Positions 23,351 to 26,946 of a DNA stretch of 32,471 nucleotides are shown one piece after another. The position numbers were made by a program, and so were the translations under genes. The stretch covers positions 1 to 32,471 of the forward strand of contig JAHYJD010000033.1 in the NCBI GenBank assembly GCA_019429365.1, given 5' to 3'. The number at the start of each line of letters is the position of its first letter. Positions within the stretch are counted from its first letter, which is position 1. Source of the DNA: Bacteroidales bacterium (GTDB taxonomy: Bacteria > Bacteroidota > Bacteroidia > Bacteroidales > UBA7960). A model generated the notes under the pieces. It saw only the letters and a list, made by a program, of their open reading frames with translations. It was not told where the DNA came from and made no database searches.

Positions 23351-24616
23351 ATGAAATTAAAGCAATATATTTTCGCACTACTATCGGTTTTATTTTTACC
23401 CCTTTCGGGGAACACCCACACCCCTGCACCAAGCCAGCAGCAACCTATAGCCTTGGTAGGCGGCACGGTTCACACCCTTTCGGGAGAAGCCATTACCGGG
23501 GGTACTGTGCTGATGGTCGGTGGTAAGATTGAAGCAGTGGGGCTGAACCTTGACCTCCCTGCAGGCACGGAAGTGATTGACACCCGGGGCAAGCATGTGT
23601 ATCCCACCCTCATCCTGGGCCGCACCACATTAGGCCTTACCGAAATTGGGGCCGTACCCGTAACATCCGACCTGAATGAGACAGGCAACATAAACCCCAG
23701 CATCCGGGCTGAAGCGGCCTTTCACCCCGAAAGTAACCATATCCCCGTGGCAGCTGTCAATGGCATTGGCGTGGCCATTACAGGACCCACAGGCGGCATT
23801 ATTTCAGGCTTAACTGCCGCCATGCTTACCGACGGATGGACCTGGGAGCAAATGACGCTGAAAGCGCCCACCGGACTGAGCATCAACTGGCCTAATATGG
23901 CCGATGCCAGCGCCCGCGACCAGGCCATGAAAGAACTCAACGATGCTTTCGACAGCGCCCGCCGCTACATGCTGGCGCGCAAAGCTGCCCAAAGCAAGCA
24001 GGCCATCGACATCCGCTGGGAAGCAATGATTCCGGTGCTGGAAGGCAATCTTCCGGTTATGATCAATGCCGCTGAGCTTCGCCAGATACAGGCGGCCATT
24101 GCCTGGGCAGAAAAGCAGCAGGTGAAAATGATTCTGGTAGGTGGGCGCGATGCTGCCTATGTGGCCGACCAGCTCAAAGCCAAAGACATCCCGGTGATGA
24201 TCTCCCCGGTGATCGGCGCACCTTCCAGGCAGTGGGAAGCATACGATCAATCTTACAGCCTTCCGCTAAAACTGCATCAGGCAGGTGTGAAATACAGCAT
24301 TGCCGGCGAAGGTTCGGCCGCCGGGGCATCCAGACTGGCGAAACATGCCGCAGCAGCCGTGGCCTTTGGTTTACCGCAGGAAGAAGCCCTGAAAGCCATC
24401 ACCATTTATGCCGCCGAGATTTTGGGTATTGATGACCAGGTGGGAACCATAGAAGCCGGAAAAGACGCAAGCATTATGATCACCACCGGCAACCCACTTG
24501 AGTTAAGCACCCAGATCGAACAAGTCTTTATCCAGGGCCGTACGATCGACATGACCGACAAACACCGACAGCTTTATGAAAAATACCTGGAAAAGCACCG
24601 CCAGGCAGGAGAGTAA
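23351..24616 (+). CDS. Exported amidohydrolase-like protein lacking metal ligands (probable pseudo-enzyme)
   Basis: A 421-residue protein starting at the ATG at 23351 (a TTG six bases earlier is possible), 30 bp after the previous stop codon, with signal MKLKQYIFALLSVLFLPLSG. The frame of an amidohydrolase is plain: ALVGGTVHTLSGEAITGGTVLMVGGKIEAVG, GKHVYPTLI, and the end NPLELSTQIEQVFIQGR preceded by ILGIDDQVGTIEAGKDASIMI. However, where HxH is expected it reads YPTLILGRTTLGL; the later His positions are replaced (PVMINAAELRQ, IPVMISPVI) and the Asp loop reads IAGEGS. It therefore probably lacks hydrolytic activity and may act as a subunit or stabiliser of the preceding double-domain protein. 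Confidence 0.88.
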   Translation: MKLKQYIFALLSVLFLPLSGNTHTPAPSQQQPIALVGGTVHTLSGEAITGGTVLMVGGKIEAVGLNLDLPAGTEVIDTRGKHVYPTLILGRTTLGLTEIGAVPVTSDLNETGNINPSIRAEAAFHPESNHIPVAAVNGIGVAITGPTGGIISGLTAAMLTDGWTWEQMTLKAPTGLSINWPNMADASARDQAMKELNDAFDSARRYMLARKAAQSKQAIDIRWEAMIPVLEGNLPVMINAAELRQIQAAIAWAEKQQVKMILVGGRDAAYVADQLKAKDIPVMISPVIGAPSRQWEAYDQSYSLPLKLHQAGVKYSIAGEGSAAGASRLAKHAAAAVAFGLPQEEALKAITIYAAEILGIDDQVGTIEAGKDASIMITTGNPLELSTQIEQVFIQGRTIDMTDKHRQLYEKYLEKHRQAGE

Positions 24617-24617
24617 A

Positions 24618-24646
24618 AAAAAAACCGGCCCTGAGCCGGTTTTTTT
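24618..24646. terminator. Bidirectional terminator between the amidohydrolase operon and tRNA-Arg
   Basis: A GC-rich stem ACCGGC (24624-24629) / GCCGGT (24635-24640) with a 5-nt loop is extended by A-T pairs and has an A-run on the left and a T-run on the right. It therefore gives a U-tract on either strand, serving the plus-strand operon ending at 24616 and the minus-strand tRNA-Arg at 24660-24733. Confidence 0.88.
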
Positions 24647-24659
24647 ATTGATTTTCAAG

Positions 24660-24733
24660 CGATTCCGGCAGGATTCGAACCTGCGACCCACAGCTTAGAA
24701 GGCTGTTGCTCTATCCAACTGAGCTACGGAACC
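24660..24733 (-). tRNA. tRNA-Arg (anticodon TCT)
   Basis: A complete 74-nt cloverleaf on the minus strand: acceptor GGTTCCG / CGGAATC (one G-T pair), D-arm GCTC...GAGC, anticodon arm ACAGC-CTTCTAA-GCTGT giving TCT (reads AGA), variable GGGTC, T-arm GCAGG-TTCGAAT-CCTGC, discriminator G. CCA is not encoded. It ends 14 bp before a bidirectional terminator. It may be expressed in the same transcript as tRNA-Val upstream. Confidence 0.95.
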
Positions 24734-24755
24734 AATATTATTTTATTTTTTCAAA

Positions 24756-24813
24756 GAACCAGCGACCCATCCCGAAGGTTCGGGATTGCTCTATCCAACT
24801 GAGCTACGGAACC
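24756..24813 (-). pseudogene. tRNA-Arg remnant with replaced anticodon arm
   Basis: A partial copy of the neighbouring tRNA-Arg, 80 bp away. Its 5' part is identical for 29 bp (24786-24814 versus 24706-24734: acceptor 5' strand, D-arm and D-loop). On the minus strand the intact gene's anticodon arm ACAGC-CTTCTAA-GCTGT is replaced by ATCCC-GAACCTTC-GGGAT, built on a 16-nt near-palindrome (24770-24785). After this GGGTCGC-x-GGTTC is retained with one mismatch, then homology stops, so the T-arm and 3' acceptor strand are missing. It cannot be a working tRNA. Confidence 0.85.
24770..24785. repeat. 16-nt palindrome inside the tRNA-Arg remnant
   Basis: TCCCGAAGGTTCGGGA: 7-bp arms around GG, replacing almost exactly the anticodon arm of the tRNA-Arg copy. 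Flanks GACCCA and TTGCTC are those of the intact gene. It shares length and TCC/GGA ends with the palindrome at 24863-24878. Confidence 0.85.
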
Positions 24814-24821
24814 ATTATTCG

Positions 24822-24893
24822 TGGGACGTGGCAGGATCGAACTGCCGACCTCATGCCTGTCATCCGCTGGCCAGCGGACTAAACCAACTGAGC
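24822..24893 (-). pseudogene. tRNA-Val remnant with palindrome in place of anticodon-arm 5' side
   Basis: A damaged copy of the tRNA-Val gene at 25208-25282. The 3' part (anticodon GAC through T-arm and acceptor 3' strand) is identical, within a 45-bp exact match. The D-loop segment (24879-24893) is also identical. Between them ten bases of the intact gene are replaced by the 16-nt palindrome at 24863-24878, removing the D-stem 3' strand and anticodon-stem 5' strand. The 5' acceptor strand is absent (AAATCG in place of GGGACGT). Only eight bases separate it from the tRNA-Arg remnant, the tight spacing of a normal tRNA pair. Confidence 0.85.
24863..24878. repeat. 16-nt perfect palindrome inside the tRNA-Val remnant
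   Basis: TCCGCTGGCCAGCGGA equals its own reverse complement. It sits between exact tRNA-Val sequences (TGTCA on the left, CTAAACC on the right). Its half-site with one flanking base, ATCCGCTGG, recurs at 24920-24928 overlapping the stop codon of the GIY-YIG gene. Confidence 0.9.
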
Positions 24894-24916
24894 CGATTTA
24901 AAAACCAGCAAAAAGT

Positions 24917-25177
24917 TTAATCCGCTGGTAGTTTATTTATTATTTCTGAATAAATAAACGCCCTGCCATTTGCTGATTTCAACTGCTTTTCCCTTTTCAT
25001 GGCATCAGTCTTTTCTTCAATTTCCTCAAAATAAACCAATGACCATGGCTGAAACTTTTTCGTCCATCCCTTATTTCTTCCATCATTATGAGAAGCAAGG
25101 CGTTTTTCTAAATCAGAAGTAAAACCTATATAAATTTTCTCAAACCTCTTGGAGTAAAGAACGTAAGTGAAATACAT
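24917..25177 (-). CDS. GIY-YIG nuclease domain protein between tRNA-Val and its broken copy
   Basis: An 86-residue protein from the ATG at 25177. A longer frame reaches back into tRNA-Val but is not a plausible protein. It contains the single-domain GIY-YIG core: YVL (5-7) and YIG (16-18), catalytic-type Arg26 in DLEKRLASHN, and Glu63 in MKREKQLK, the usual metal-binding glutamate. This size is typical of the stand-alone UPF0213-like GIY-YIG proteins common in Bacteroidota. It begins 30 bp after the tRNA-Val 3' end on the same strand with no terminator between, so it is probably transcribed from the tRNA promoter. Related enzymes make strand cuts in DNA, and free-standing members include homing endonucleases; action at tRNA genes is inferred from location alone. 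Confidence 0.9.
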   Translation of the reverse strand: MYFTYVLYSKRFEKIYIGFTSDLEKRLASHNDGRNKGWTKKFQPWSLVYFEEIEEKTDAMKREKQLKSANGRAFIYSEIINKLPAD

Positions 25178-25207
25178 ACTCAAGAAAAAAAGATCGTTCT
25201 GTTTTCG

Positions 25208-25282
25208 TGGGACGTGGCAGGATCGAACTGCCGACCTCATGCCTGTCAAGCATGCACTCTAAACCAACTGAGCTAACGTCCC
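25208..25282 (-). tRNA. tRNA-Val (anticodon GAC)
   Basis: A 75-nt cloverleaf on the minus strand: acceptor GGGACGT / ACGTCCC (perfect), D-arm GCTC...GAGT, anticodon arm CATGC-TTGACAG-GCATG giving GAC (reads GUC/GUU), variable AGGTC, T-arm GGCAG-TTCGATC-CTGCC, discriminator A. CCA is not encoded. A good -7 box lies 15 bp upstream. Confidence 0.95.
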
Positions 25283-25296
25283 GAAAAATTTGACTG

Positions 25297-25304
25297 CAAA
25301 GTTA
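25297..25304 (-). promoter_or_regulatory. -7 box of the tRNA-Val promoter
   Basis: The minus strand reads TAACTTTG followed by C, an exact TAnnTTTG, placing the transcription start a few bases before the tRNA 5' end at 25282. It may drive tRNA-Val, the GIY-YIG gene, both remnants and tRNA-Arg, since no terminator is visible until 24646. Confidence 0.5.
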
Positions 25305-25410
25305 CACTTTTTCTCAATTTTTATCAGCGCCCCGAACCAAGTTTGTTGAAACTTGAACCAGGCATTGATTCCCAAAACAGATTTCTCATTTCCCGTTAAG
25401 GAAAAACAGC

Positions 25411-25418
25411 TATTTTCG
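25411..25418 (+). promoter_or_regulatory. Possible -7 box for the GHL10 hydrolase gene
   Basis: TATTTTCG (one base off TAnnTTTG) lies 25 bp ahead of the ATG at 25444. No clear -33 TTTG accompanies it. Weak call. Confidence 0.3.
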
Positions 25419-25443
25419 GGAAAACTTTGAAAGGAAAAAACGC

Positions 25444-26946
25444 ATGCAAAGATCCATCCTTATTGCAACCATTCTGCTGGCAACCATTTTTCAGACGAAG
25501 CTCCATGCGCAGCAAATCCCGCAGGAAATGCGCGGCATTTGGGTGGCCACAGTAGCCAACATCGACTGGCCATCGCGCCCGGGACTGGATGCCCTCTCAC
25601 AGCAAGCCGAAGCCATTGAAATACTGGACCGGCAGAAGGAGCATGGCATGAACGCGGTGTACCTGCAGATCCGCCCGGCTGCTGATGCCCTTTATGCATC
25701 GGAACTGGAGCCCTGGTCGCGCTTTCTGAGCGGACGGCAGGGAACACCCCCTGCTCCTTACTACGATCCGCTGCAGTTCTGGATTGAAGAAGCCCACAAG
25801 CGCGGGCTGGAACTGCATGCCTGGATAAACCCCTTCAGGGCTACCTTCAGTGCCGGTGAGTACCTGCACCCCTCCCACTCCATGAACCGACACCCCGAAA
25901 GGCTGCTGCAATATGGCGAGCGCTATTACTATGATCCCGGCATTCCTGAAGTGAGGCAACACCTTTTCAATGTGGTGGCTGACATCGTGACCCGCTACGA
26001 CATTGATGGCATGCACATGGACGATTATTTTTACCCCTATCCCCTGGCGGGGATTGAATTTCCTGATTCTTTATCCTTTCAGCAATATGGTTCGGGCATT
26101 TTGGAAGAGCGCGACGACTGGCGGCGCGACAACATCAACAAAGTGATCAAAGGTCTGAACGATACCATTAAGCATCATAAGCCCTGGGTGAAGTTCGGGG
26201 TAAGCCCCTTCGGGGTGTGGCGCAACAAAGCCACCGACCCGCGCGGCAGCGATACCCGGGCAGGCGTGCAATGCTACGACGACCTGTATGCCGATATCCT
26301 GCTGTGGGAAAAGGAAGGCTGGGTAGACTATGTGCTGCCGCAAATTTACTGGACCACCCAGGATATTCCGGCCAACTTCATTAAGCTAATAAACTGGTGG
26401 AACGAAACCGCCCACCACCGCCATTTATATATCGGCCACGGTTTTTACCGCATTGGGCAAAGTGGTTTCTGGGAAAATCCTTCAGAGATTCCAAACCAGA
26501 TCCGCATGACCCGCGATTTAAAAAACGTGCTGGGCAGCGTGCATTTCAGCGAGCGCCACTTCAAACGAACGGATATCTATTCGGTGAACGATAGCCTGAA
26601 AAATGACCTGTATTGCATGCCCGCGCTCACGCCAAACATGGCCTGGATCGACACCAAAGCACCCGATCCGGTGTATATTTTGAGCCAAAGAGGGAGGAAT
26701 ATCAATTGGCAACCAGCATTGGCAGATACGCCGCTTAACGAAGGCAAACGTTTTATCATCTACCTTGAGCCTTCCAGCTCAAAAGCCGATGCCTGCGGGC
26801 CAGTTTGGTTCATAACAGGCGAAAATCATTTTGAACTACCCCGCAGACCCTGGCTGCAACGCGCCCGATACAACATGAGCGTTATAGCGGTTGACAGGAT
26901 GAGCAACCAAAGCCCAAAAAGCCAAACCGTGAGAGTGAGATATTAA
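25444..26946 (+). CDS. Secreted family-10-like glycosyl hydrolase (GHL10 / DUF187)
   Basis: A 500-residue protein from the ATG at 25444, with signal MQRSILIATILLATIFQTKLHA. It matches the GHL10 pattern: EMRGIWVATVANIDWPS (28-44), HGMNAVYLQIRPAADALYASELEPWS, GLELHAWINPFRA, DIDGMHMDDYFYPYP (around 186-200, with Asp193/Asp194 as likely active-site acids), VKFGVSPFGVWRN and DYVLPQIYW. These are (beta/alpha)8-barrel landmarks of proteins described as glycosyl hydrolase-like, some of which act on peptidoglycan- or polysaccharide-derived sugars. A C-terminal ~100-residue beta-domain follows. The likely location is the periplasm. The substrate cannot be told. It converges on msrB with about 40 bp between. 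Confidence 0.92.
   Translation: MQRSILIATILLATIFQTKLHAQQIPQEMRGIWVATVANIDWPSRPGLDALSQQAEAIEILDRQKEHGMNAVYLQIRPAADALYASELEPWSRFLSGRQGTPPAPYYDPLQFWIEEAHKRGLELHAWINPFRATFSAGEYLHPSHSMNRHPERLLQYGERYYYDPGIPEVRQHLFNVVADIVTRYDIDGMHMDDYFYPYPLAGIEFPDSLSFQQYGSGILEERDDWRRDNINKVIKGLNDTIKHHKPWVKFGVSPFGVWRNKATDPRGSDTRAGVQCYDDLYADILLWEKEGWVDYVLPQIYWTTQDIPANFIKLINWWNETAHHRHLYIGHGFYRIGQSGFWENPSEIPNQIRMTRDLKNVLGSVHFSERHFKRTDIYSVNDSLKNDLYCMPALTPNMAWIDTKAPDPVYILSQRGRNINWQPALADTPLNEGKRFIIYLEPSSSKADACGPVWFITGENHFELPRRPWLQRARYNMSVIAVDRMSNQSPKSQTVRVRY

Follow-up and report, generated by a model that had tools for sequence, protein, structure and literature searches.

Integrases and integrase islands restore the 3' end of the tRNA gene that they enter, the replacement half being supplied by the insert and the displaced half lying at its far end. 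Group I introns with a homing endonuclease insert in the anticodon loops of tRNA genes without loss of the tRNA, and REP elements with RAYT transposases are small dispersed palindromes found near a small nuclease gene. Ssn of Neisseria is a small, single-domain GIY-YIG nuclease that acts on ssDNA and is linked to repeats. As for UPF0213 proteins and Slx1, we know of no link to tRNA.

Judging from the passages on SegB in the source cited, the known system nearest to the one described below is SegB, a free-standing GIY-YIG homing endonuclease of phages T4 and T6 (PMC13096335). According to these passages, several of the SegB cut sites lie inside tRNA genes, the nuclease gene adjoins tRNA genes, and SegB causes, through recombination, a segment that carries a tRNA together with a truncated nuclease gene to be amplified in tandem (PMC13096335).

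We analyzed a tRNA-associated GIY-YIG gene of a Bacteroidales genome (the window hereafter denotes the whole stretch of DNA analyzed, 32,471 nucleotides in length). We propose, with a probability of about 0.62, that the locus bears a mobile, free-standing homing-like element with a minimal GIY-YIG nuclease as its sole gene; homing, namely cutting and copying, is what we infer from genome comparison. A GIY-YIG gene adjoining tRNA genes, tandem amplification and, in our interpretation, cutting within tRNA genes are the features shared with SegB, which cuts tRNA genes and drives amplification and thus gives a precedent for both steps in the passages cited (PMC13096335). SegB is phage-borne and cuts several tRNA genes, whereas the present nuclease is chromosomal and comprises 86 aa. 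Furthermore, restored tRNA halves, pseudo-tRNAs with hairpins and lineages linked to an isotype, all features of the present element, do not appear in the SegB passages (PMC13096335). No published description of a tRNA-splitting nuclease arrangement was found in a search of open papers.

Structure of the locus

The features of the locus are as follows, in the order of the minus strand.

25207..25282, minus strand: intact tRNA-Val(GAC), called by ARAGORN, with the same sequence as Val at the empty site described below
24917..25177, minus strand: GIY-YIG nuclease gene, 86 aa, catalytic domain alone (PF01541, E 5e-19; pLDDT 94)
24879..24893, minus strand: remnant of the Val 5' part, Val positions 10-24 (sequence comparison)
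24863..24878: 16-nt perfect palindrome TCCGCTGGCCAGCGGA replacing Val positions 25-34
24821..24862, minus strand: displaced Val 3' half, positions 35-76 (sequence comparison, empty site)
24814..24820: 7-nt spacer, counterpart of the 6-nt Val-Arg spacer at the empty site
24786..24813, minus strand: displaced Arg 5' half, positions 1-28 (sequence comparison, empty site)
24770..24785: hairpin TCCCGAACCTTCGGGA within the Arg anticodon arm
24734..24769, minus strand: Arg T-arm remnant (24768-24756) and short AT-rich leader, belonging to the putative nuclease-less insert
24659..24733, minus strand: intact tRNA-Arg(TCT) (ARAGORN, empty-site comparison)
24615..24649: terminator-like inverted repeat past tRNA-Arg

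The gene order originally predicted for the minus strand, in which a GIY-YIG gene, a broken Val copy and a broken Arg copy are enclosed by intact tRNA-Val and tRNA-Arg, was confirmed by sequence comparison and ARAGORN, the latter calling the two intact tRNAs and neither of the broken copies. The broken Val copy spans 24893-24821 and the broken Arg copy 24813-24756 on the minus strand, as counted by hand on the sequence; they are closely adjacent as predicted, albeit separated by 7 nt and not by 8 bp. The tRNA repeats measure 45 nt (100%) and 34 nt (97%), and other genomes show the same layout (see below); thus, the broken copies are not a matter of chance. Both contain a hairpin in the anticodon-arm region, and the Val palindrome (TCCGCTGGCCAGCGGA) has no spacer between its arms. 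The 3' end of the nuclease gene (24921-24928, CCAGCGGA) has the same sequence as the Val hairpin in its right half.

No recombinase was detected by Pfam on the 16 larger ORFs of the window (14 with a family and two without), in agreement with the original prediction, and an integrase-type tRNA element was set aside on this ground. Insertion in the middle of the tRNA, the hairpin and the units of 315-450 bp in three arrays also differ from integrase islands; the restoration of a tRNA half by integrases is a precedent for the restoration step proposed here. A group I intron was likewise set aside, as no intron family matched the window at the gathering threshold and both tRNAs are uninterrupted; the tRNA appears to be rebuilt in the DNA, not spliced. 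The locus differs from REP elements with RAYT transposases in that the protein is of the GIY-YIG type, not a Y1 transposase, and in that the hairpins sit inside tRNA copies.

The nuclease

The window ORF (25177-24917, minus strand) encodes a protein of 86 aa that matches Pfam PF01541 with an E of 5e-19. Across 11 proteins, Y5, Y16, G18, R26, H30 and E63 are invariant, which we take to be the catalytic residues of GIY-YIG; the domain and these residues together identify the protein as a GIY-YIG nuclease. Among five family proteins subjected to Pfam, all had GIY-YIG, two had a weak T5orf172 match and none had a Y1 (HUH) transposase. In NCBIfam, the window protein had no match, and two of the five proteins had sub-cutoff matches to a group I intron endonuclease. 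The AlphaFold model shows a compact fold (pLDDT 94). UPF0213 proteins (1zg2, 1ywl) and Slx1 are nearest to the nuclease among solved sequences and again among folds, where I-TevI and UvrC matched more weakly; E was below 0.001 for 1zg2 alone and 0.0035 for Slx1. No DNA-binding part beyond the 86-aa catalytic fold was found in the sequence, by Pfam or in the predicted structure. Among 32 close nuclease pairs, dN/dS was computable in 12 and ranged from 0.08 to 0.39, which suggests purifying selection on the nuclease, with dS above 1 in eight of the 12 pairs and sequences shared between pairs.

Empty sites

A sister species of the same genus (genome G044, locus L328) possesses a plain tRNA-Val(GAC), 6 nt and tRNA-Arg(TCT) without the nuclease gene, adjoining an orthologous neighbour gene (protein 86% identical). 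A BLAST comparison of about 200 nt of this empty site with the window gave three main pieces: the left flank plus the complete Val, the right flank plus the complete Arg, and a middle piece composed of the Val 3' half, the spacer and the Arg 5' half, which lies between the two hairpins in the window. The window is best read as the ancestral Val-Arg site with two inserts, one per tRNA gene. In this simplest reading, the Val insert would consist of a replacement 3' half followed by the nuclease gene, the 5' remnant and the hairpin, and the Arg insert, which lacks a nuclease gene, of its own hairpin, the T-arm remnant and a replacement 5' half, each insert carrying the tRNA half lost by the gene it interrupted. 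The intact tRNA-Val would then have a native 5' half and an insert-borne 3' half, and the intact tRNA-Arg an insert-borne 5' half and a native 3' half.

The original prediction suggested that a Val-Arg tandem had been split and duplicated on arrival of the nuclease gene, and that relatives should retain a simple tandem. Such an empty tandem does exist in the sister species, but the pair was probably not duplicated as one piece: the middle piece, flanked by the two inserts, seems to keep the ancestral Val-spacer-Arg contact, and the Val-Arg pair is probably not a single duplication unit. The orientation of the pair relative to the neighbour gene is opposite in L328 and in the window (24600-25450), so that an inversion also separates the two species.

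Occupied and empty alleles of the same site were found not only between the window and G044 but also at tRNA-Asp in genus g13. In that genus, 15 of 19 genomes were matched and 14 Asp loci were cut out; the site was occupied in five genomes and empty in seven, and the remaining two of the 14, at contig ends, could be assigned to neither class, it being possible in each case that a second Asp gene was matched, since the matches are mostly of the tRNA and its leader. Genus g218 was represented by 30 Ser-Pro-Arg tRNA loci, the best from 61 genomes, and 28 of these loci included tRNA-Arg(TCT); in none of the 30 did a nuclease gene start at positions 1000-2800 of the stretches of about 3.3 kb. The nuclease is present at the Ser-Pro-Arg site of Chryseobacterium indologenes AA5, of which g218 need not be the genus.

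Recurrence beside tRNA genes

The genome of the window has two further nuclease copies, which are divergent and flank one tRNA-Asp. By a Pfam search of 47 genomes of the family, small GIY-YIG genes were found to be either tRNA-linked or tRNA-less, the latter sort comprising 12 loci with a tRNA or tRNA fragment nearby in none; five short or truncated matches (L044-L048) were excluded from the counts. A second group of genes is tRNA-less (L003, L009, L014, L016, L017, L019 and L037), and several of its members lie, by eye, amid repeats of the TGTCATTTCGA.. type, often with GGCGGCGC..GCCGCC palindromes. A third small GIY-YIG group (L005 and L015) has the C-terminus NPTG in both members, with ACCCGTTGG / CCAACGGG type repeats close to both ends of the ORF.

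A profile built from 11 tRNA-linked proteins (A1), which is biased to tRNA-linked members, found matches in 183 of 393 order genomes at E 1e-10 and, in a phylum sample, in 181 of 296 at E 1e-12. The order census covered 128 of the listed places, leaving uncounted the listed neighbours in the same stretch and unlisted weaker matches. In this and the other locus counts, Ile(TAT), Cys(GCA), Leu(TAA), Phe(AAA), Stop(TTA) and '???' calls of ARAGORN were taken as pseudo-tRNAs, as was Tyr(ATA) in the census of named genomes. An intact tRNA on the same strand was present within 700 bp in 105 of the 128 loci: at most 250 bp upstream in 79 (median gap 44), at most 150 bp downstream in 15 and at 250-700 bp upstream in 11. 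The remainder had tRNA fragments only (18 loci, several at contig ends) or neither (five loci). For the loci from the phylum search (n=29), the same classes held 22, 2, 1, 2 and 2, an intact tRNA thus adjoining 25 of 29. Control loci of UvrC or exonuclease GIY-YIG genes, about 2.5-3.2 kb each, had a tRNA in 0/19.

Named genomes were scanned with eight Val(TAC)-lineage proteins (A2), and the best 80 of 330 relatives gave 79 loci. Of these 79, 48 had an intact Val(TAC) at most 700 bp upstream, six Arg(TCT), one Met and one Lys; 13 were cut by a contig end within 400 bp, and 10 were without an intact tRNA yet with fragments. Two records titled complete genome, those of C. indologenes AA5 (Arg) and Marivirga arenosa (Val), have the layout. 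The MAG records L260 and L278, titled Bifidobacterium breve and Streptomyces griseus, carry a Bacteroidota-type element, and we regard their titles as doubtful. GIY-YIG relatives in phages and plasmids (13 and 25 records, respectively) were all below 60% identity, and IMG/VR gave a single relative (58%) near a contig end with no tRNA called.

Altogether, related nucleases repeatedly adjoin tRNA genes with duplicated tRNA pieces across the order, the phylum and the named genomes, as had been anticipated. The contrary outcome, a lack of association between homologues of the nuclease and tRNA genes, was not observed in the order, where a tRNA or tRNA fragment is near 123 of 128 loci. A mirrored layout, in which a 5' part with a hairpin is followed by the nuclease gene and an intact tRNA close behind or overlapping the 3' end of that gene, was seen at Arg (L074, L083, L091, L104, L132, L143 and L149) and, as an array, at Ser (L312).

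Nuclease lineages and tRNA isotypes

In the nuclease tree, 134 labelled rows with 21 isotype labels required 39 label changes, compared with 85-100 in 100 shuffles; when restricted to the 96 rows with a called tRNA, 31 isotype changes were required versus 62-73. The tree is poorly resolved (152 proteins, 82 columns, 11 of 148 inner branches starred), and the isotypes of seven rows were set by hand, mostly as Val-like where ARAGORN took the hairpin for the anticodon arm. Host family (56 labels) gave a weak signal on the same tree, with 106 changes versus 112-120 after shuffling. We conclude that a nuclease lineage largely keeps to a single tRNA isotype. The link is not absolute: nucleases of the Val(TAC) lineage were found at Arg(TCT) in six of the 79 named loci (from the best 80 of 330 relatives). 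Mapping host order on the tree of Val(TAC) nucleases (62 rows, five orders) gave 18 changes, with a minimum of 4 and a shuffled range of 30-41. The isotype-linked lineages are partly, not wholly, mixed among hosts, and vertical inheritance therefore matters too.

Hairpins in the broken copies

Inserts were defined by the tRNA breakpoints alone, which gave 143 in 83 loci, of which 110 were distinct per locus and at least 12 nt long. A perfect stem of at least 6 was present in 90 of the 110 (shuffled mean 2.6, maximum 7) and one of at least 7 in 65 (shuffled mean 0.65, maximum 3). In the 56 inserts of 14-22 nt, the arms covary: pairs 3-7 are Watson-Crick in 39-49, versus 14-26 expected from independent arms, and pairs 1-2 are more uniform (46 and 50 versus 32 and 44 expected). 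The breakpoints recur by isotype among distinct inserts, at 25|36 in 14 for Asn, 38|51 in nine for Asp, 24|35 in five for Val(GAC) and 28|46 in five for Val(TAC), and those of Met are scattered. Besides the anticodon arm, hairpins occur in the D loop or T loop.

The homing-like unit originally predicted, which keeps the host tRNAs intact and leaves damaged copies behind, is supported by the recurrence of an intact tRNA with damaged copies and by the empty tandem of the sister species. The hairpins of the copies demand an explanation of their own, and it is here that the strongest rival arises, namely a structure-driven ssDNA or hairpin element. A Slx1-like nuclease would act on branched or hairpin DNA, the hairpin would be the mobile or nicked part (cf. 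REP-RAYT), and tRNA strands would be favoured for their cloverleaf folding. The placement of the hairpins in the D loop, anticodon arm or T loop and the covariation of their arms are in line with this explanation, as are the top rank of UPF0213 and Slx1 by both sequence and fold and the location, by eye, of several tRNA-less relatives amid other palindromes. In addition, the same 18-nt hairpin type is dispersed in other repeats of some genomes, two being in the loop of a palindrome by eye: TCCCGA..TCGGGA hairpins, relative to the reversed pattern, are enriched in genomes G346 (41 vs 1) and G258 (58 vs 0) and weakly so in G000 (15 vs 5) and G355 (21 vs 11). However, no such excess is present in G239 (5 vs 7) or G329 (0 vs 0), both with matches to the nuclease family, and the fold match to Slx1 has an E of 0.0035. 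This explanation alone also leaves the isotype-following lineages and the restored tRNA half unaccounted for, and we consider it possible but rather unlikely.

By eye, many of the G346 loci L179-L198 have 18-nt hairpins (TCCCGATNNNNATCGGGA) inside other repeats, and in L196 and L198 the hairpin apparently lies in the loop of a larger palindrome. In L040, the ORF is followed by a Thr pseudo-tRNA in which a longer MITE-like piece, ending in TGAGGCTGTAT / ATACAGCCTCA, takes the place of the anticodon arm.

Tandem arrays and flanking sequences

Tandem arrays of the element were found in single-contig genomes. The Asp array (5.0 x 315 bp, 99% matches) and the Leu array (5.3 x 450 bp, 98%) consist of units of a tRNA 3' part, the nuclease gene and a remnant with a hairpin, and the Ser array (3.1 x 323 bp, 100%) of mirrored units (5' part with hairpin, nuclease gene) ahead of the intact tRNA. 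Among the 43 loci in which the downstream copy reaches the tRNA 3' end, the same 3' flank follows both copies in 24; in the other 19, a crude BLAST comparison of the 40 nt past the intact tRNA and past the displaced half found no similarity, as expected if the insert came from elsewhere.

The flank shared in 24 of 43 loci can be explained as well by local tandem duplication of the tRNA, with one copy decaying and the nuclease gene as a passenger, and the direct repeats of tRNA halves and the tandem arrays are also compatible with such an origin. We nevertheless regard it as improbable, because nuclease lineages follow the isotype across 134 rows and 56 host families, breakpoints recur per isotype (Asn 25|36 in 14, Asp 38|51 in nine), the hairpins are in excess, and flank similarity is undetectable in 19 of 43 loci.

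Slightly further down in our estimation, and quite improbable, is a tRNA-cleaving toxin with pseudo-tRNA decoys as its RNA antitoxin, in a ToxIN-like layout of repeats, terminator and nuclease. By eye, many loci do show upstream pseudo-tRNAs in tandem, with a terminator-like hairpin ahead of the nuclease gene, and the isotype link would suit a toxin of this sort. A toxin would not have to reside at its cognate tRNA gene, but a tRNA or fragment is near 123 of 128 loci, and no family or fold of the ToxN-type endoribonuclease was found among the Pfam, NCBIfam and fold matches. To our knowledge, GIY-YIG enzymes are DNA nucleases, which also counts against this explanation. Finally, although the window comes from an assembly of 224 contigs and many family loci lie at contig ends, an assembly artefact has practically no likelihood, as the same layout occurs in single-contig genomes and in the two records titled complete genome.

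Proposed mechanism

We return to the homing-like element with the nuclease as its sole gene. The nuclease most likely cuts the tRNA gene of its cognate isotype mid-way, in the anticodon arm or, in some lineages, in the D or T loop. Repair from an element-bearing copy would then insert the 3' half, terminator, nuclease gene, 5' remnant and hairpin, or, in the mirrored form, the hairpin, leader or nuclease gene, and 5' half. Since the insert would supply a fresh tRNA half, the host would retain one intact tRNA and the displaced half would be left behind. The damaged copies are disrupted by the hairpin, while one intact tRNA remains at the locus; the hairpin likely breaks the cut site in the leftover tRNA copy. 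If the rebuilt tRNA can still be cut, repeated cutting and repair would yield tandem arrays. Cleavage, copying driven by repair and the purpose of the hairpin are thus envisaged from comparisons of genome sequences.

Several points count against the homing reading. The rebuilt tRNA is expected to stay a target, so donor immunity is a difficulty, and the protein has no DNA-binding part beyond its 86-aa catalytic fold. Inserts without a nuclease gene, such as the Arg insert of the window, would need help in trans, and a search of the window's assembly found no separate Arg-linked nuclease among seven matches. Since any break at random would destroy the site no less than a hairpin does, the paired stem needs another reason.

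Implications

We lean somewhat toward the view that these loci represent an undescribed class of chromosomal selfish elements of Bacteroidota, in which isotype-specialised nucleases split tRNA genes mid-way, rebuild them by supplying the half that was lost, mark the displaced copy with a hairpin whose arms covary, multiply as tandem arrays and spawn nuclease-less derivatives. The element is probably a variant of homing elements, and a class of its own may be warranted if the hairpin proves mechanistic. Relatives of the nuclease occur in 181 of 296 phylum-sampled genomes. If the proposal is true, a nuclease gene can reside within essential tRNA genes and needs neither splicing nor a recombinase to do so, and a natural series of nucleases with matched targets is at hand; the question would then be what the hairpin does. 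False and broken tRNA calls in Bacteroidota genomes would likewise be accounted for if the proposal holds. At L011, L140 and L150, the ARAGORN calls tRNA-Ile(TAT), Leu(TAA) or Cys(GCA) fall on pseudo-tRNAs with a hairpin, and calls of this sort in Bacteroidota may be false.
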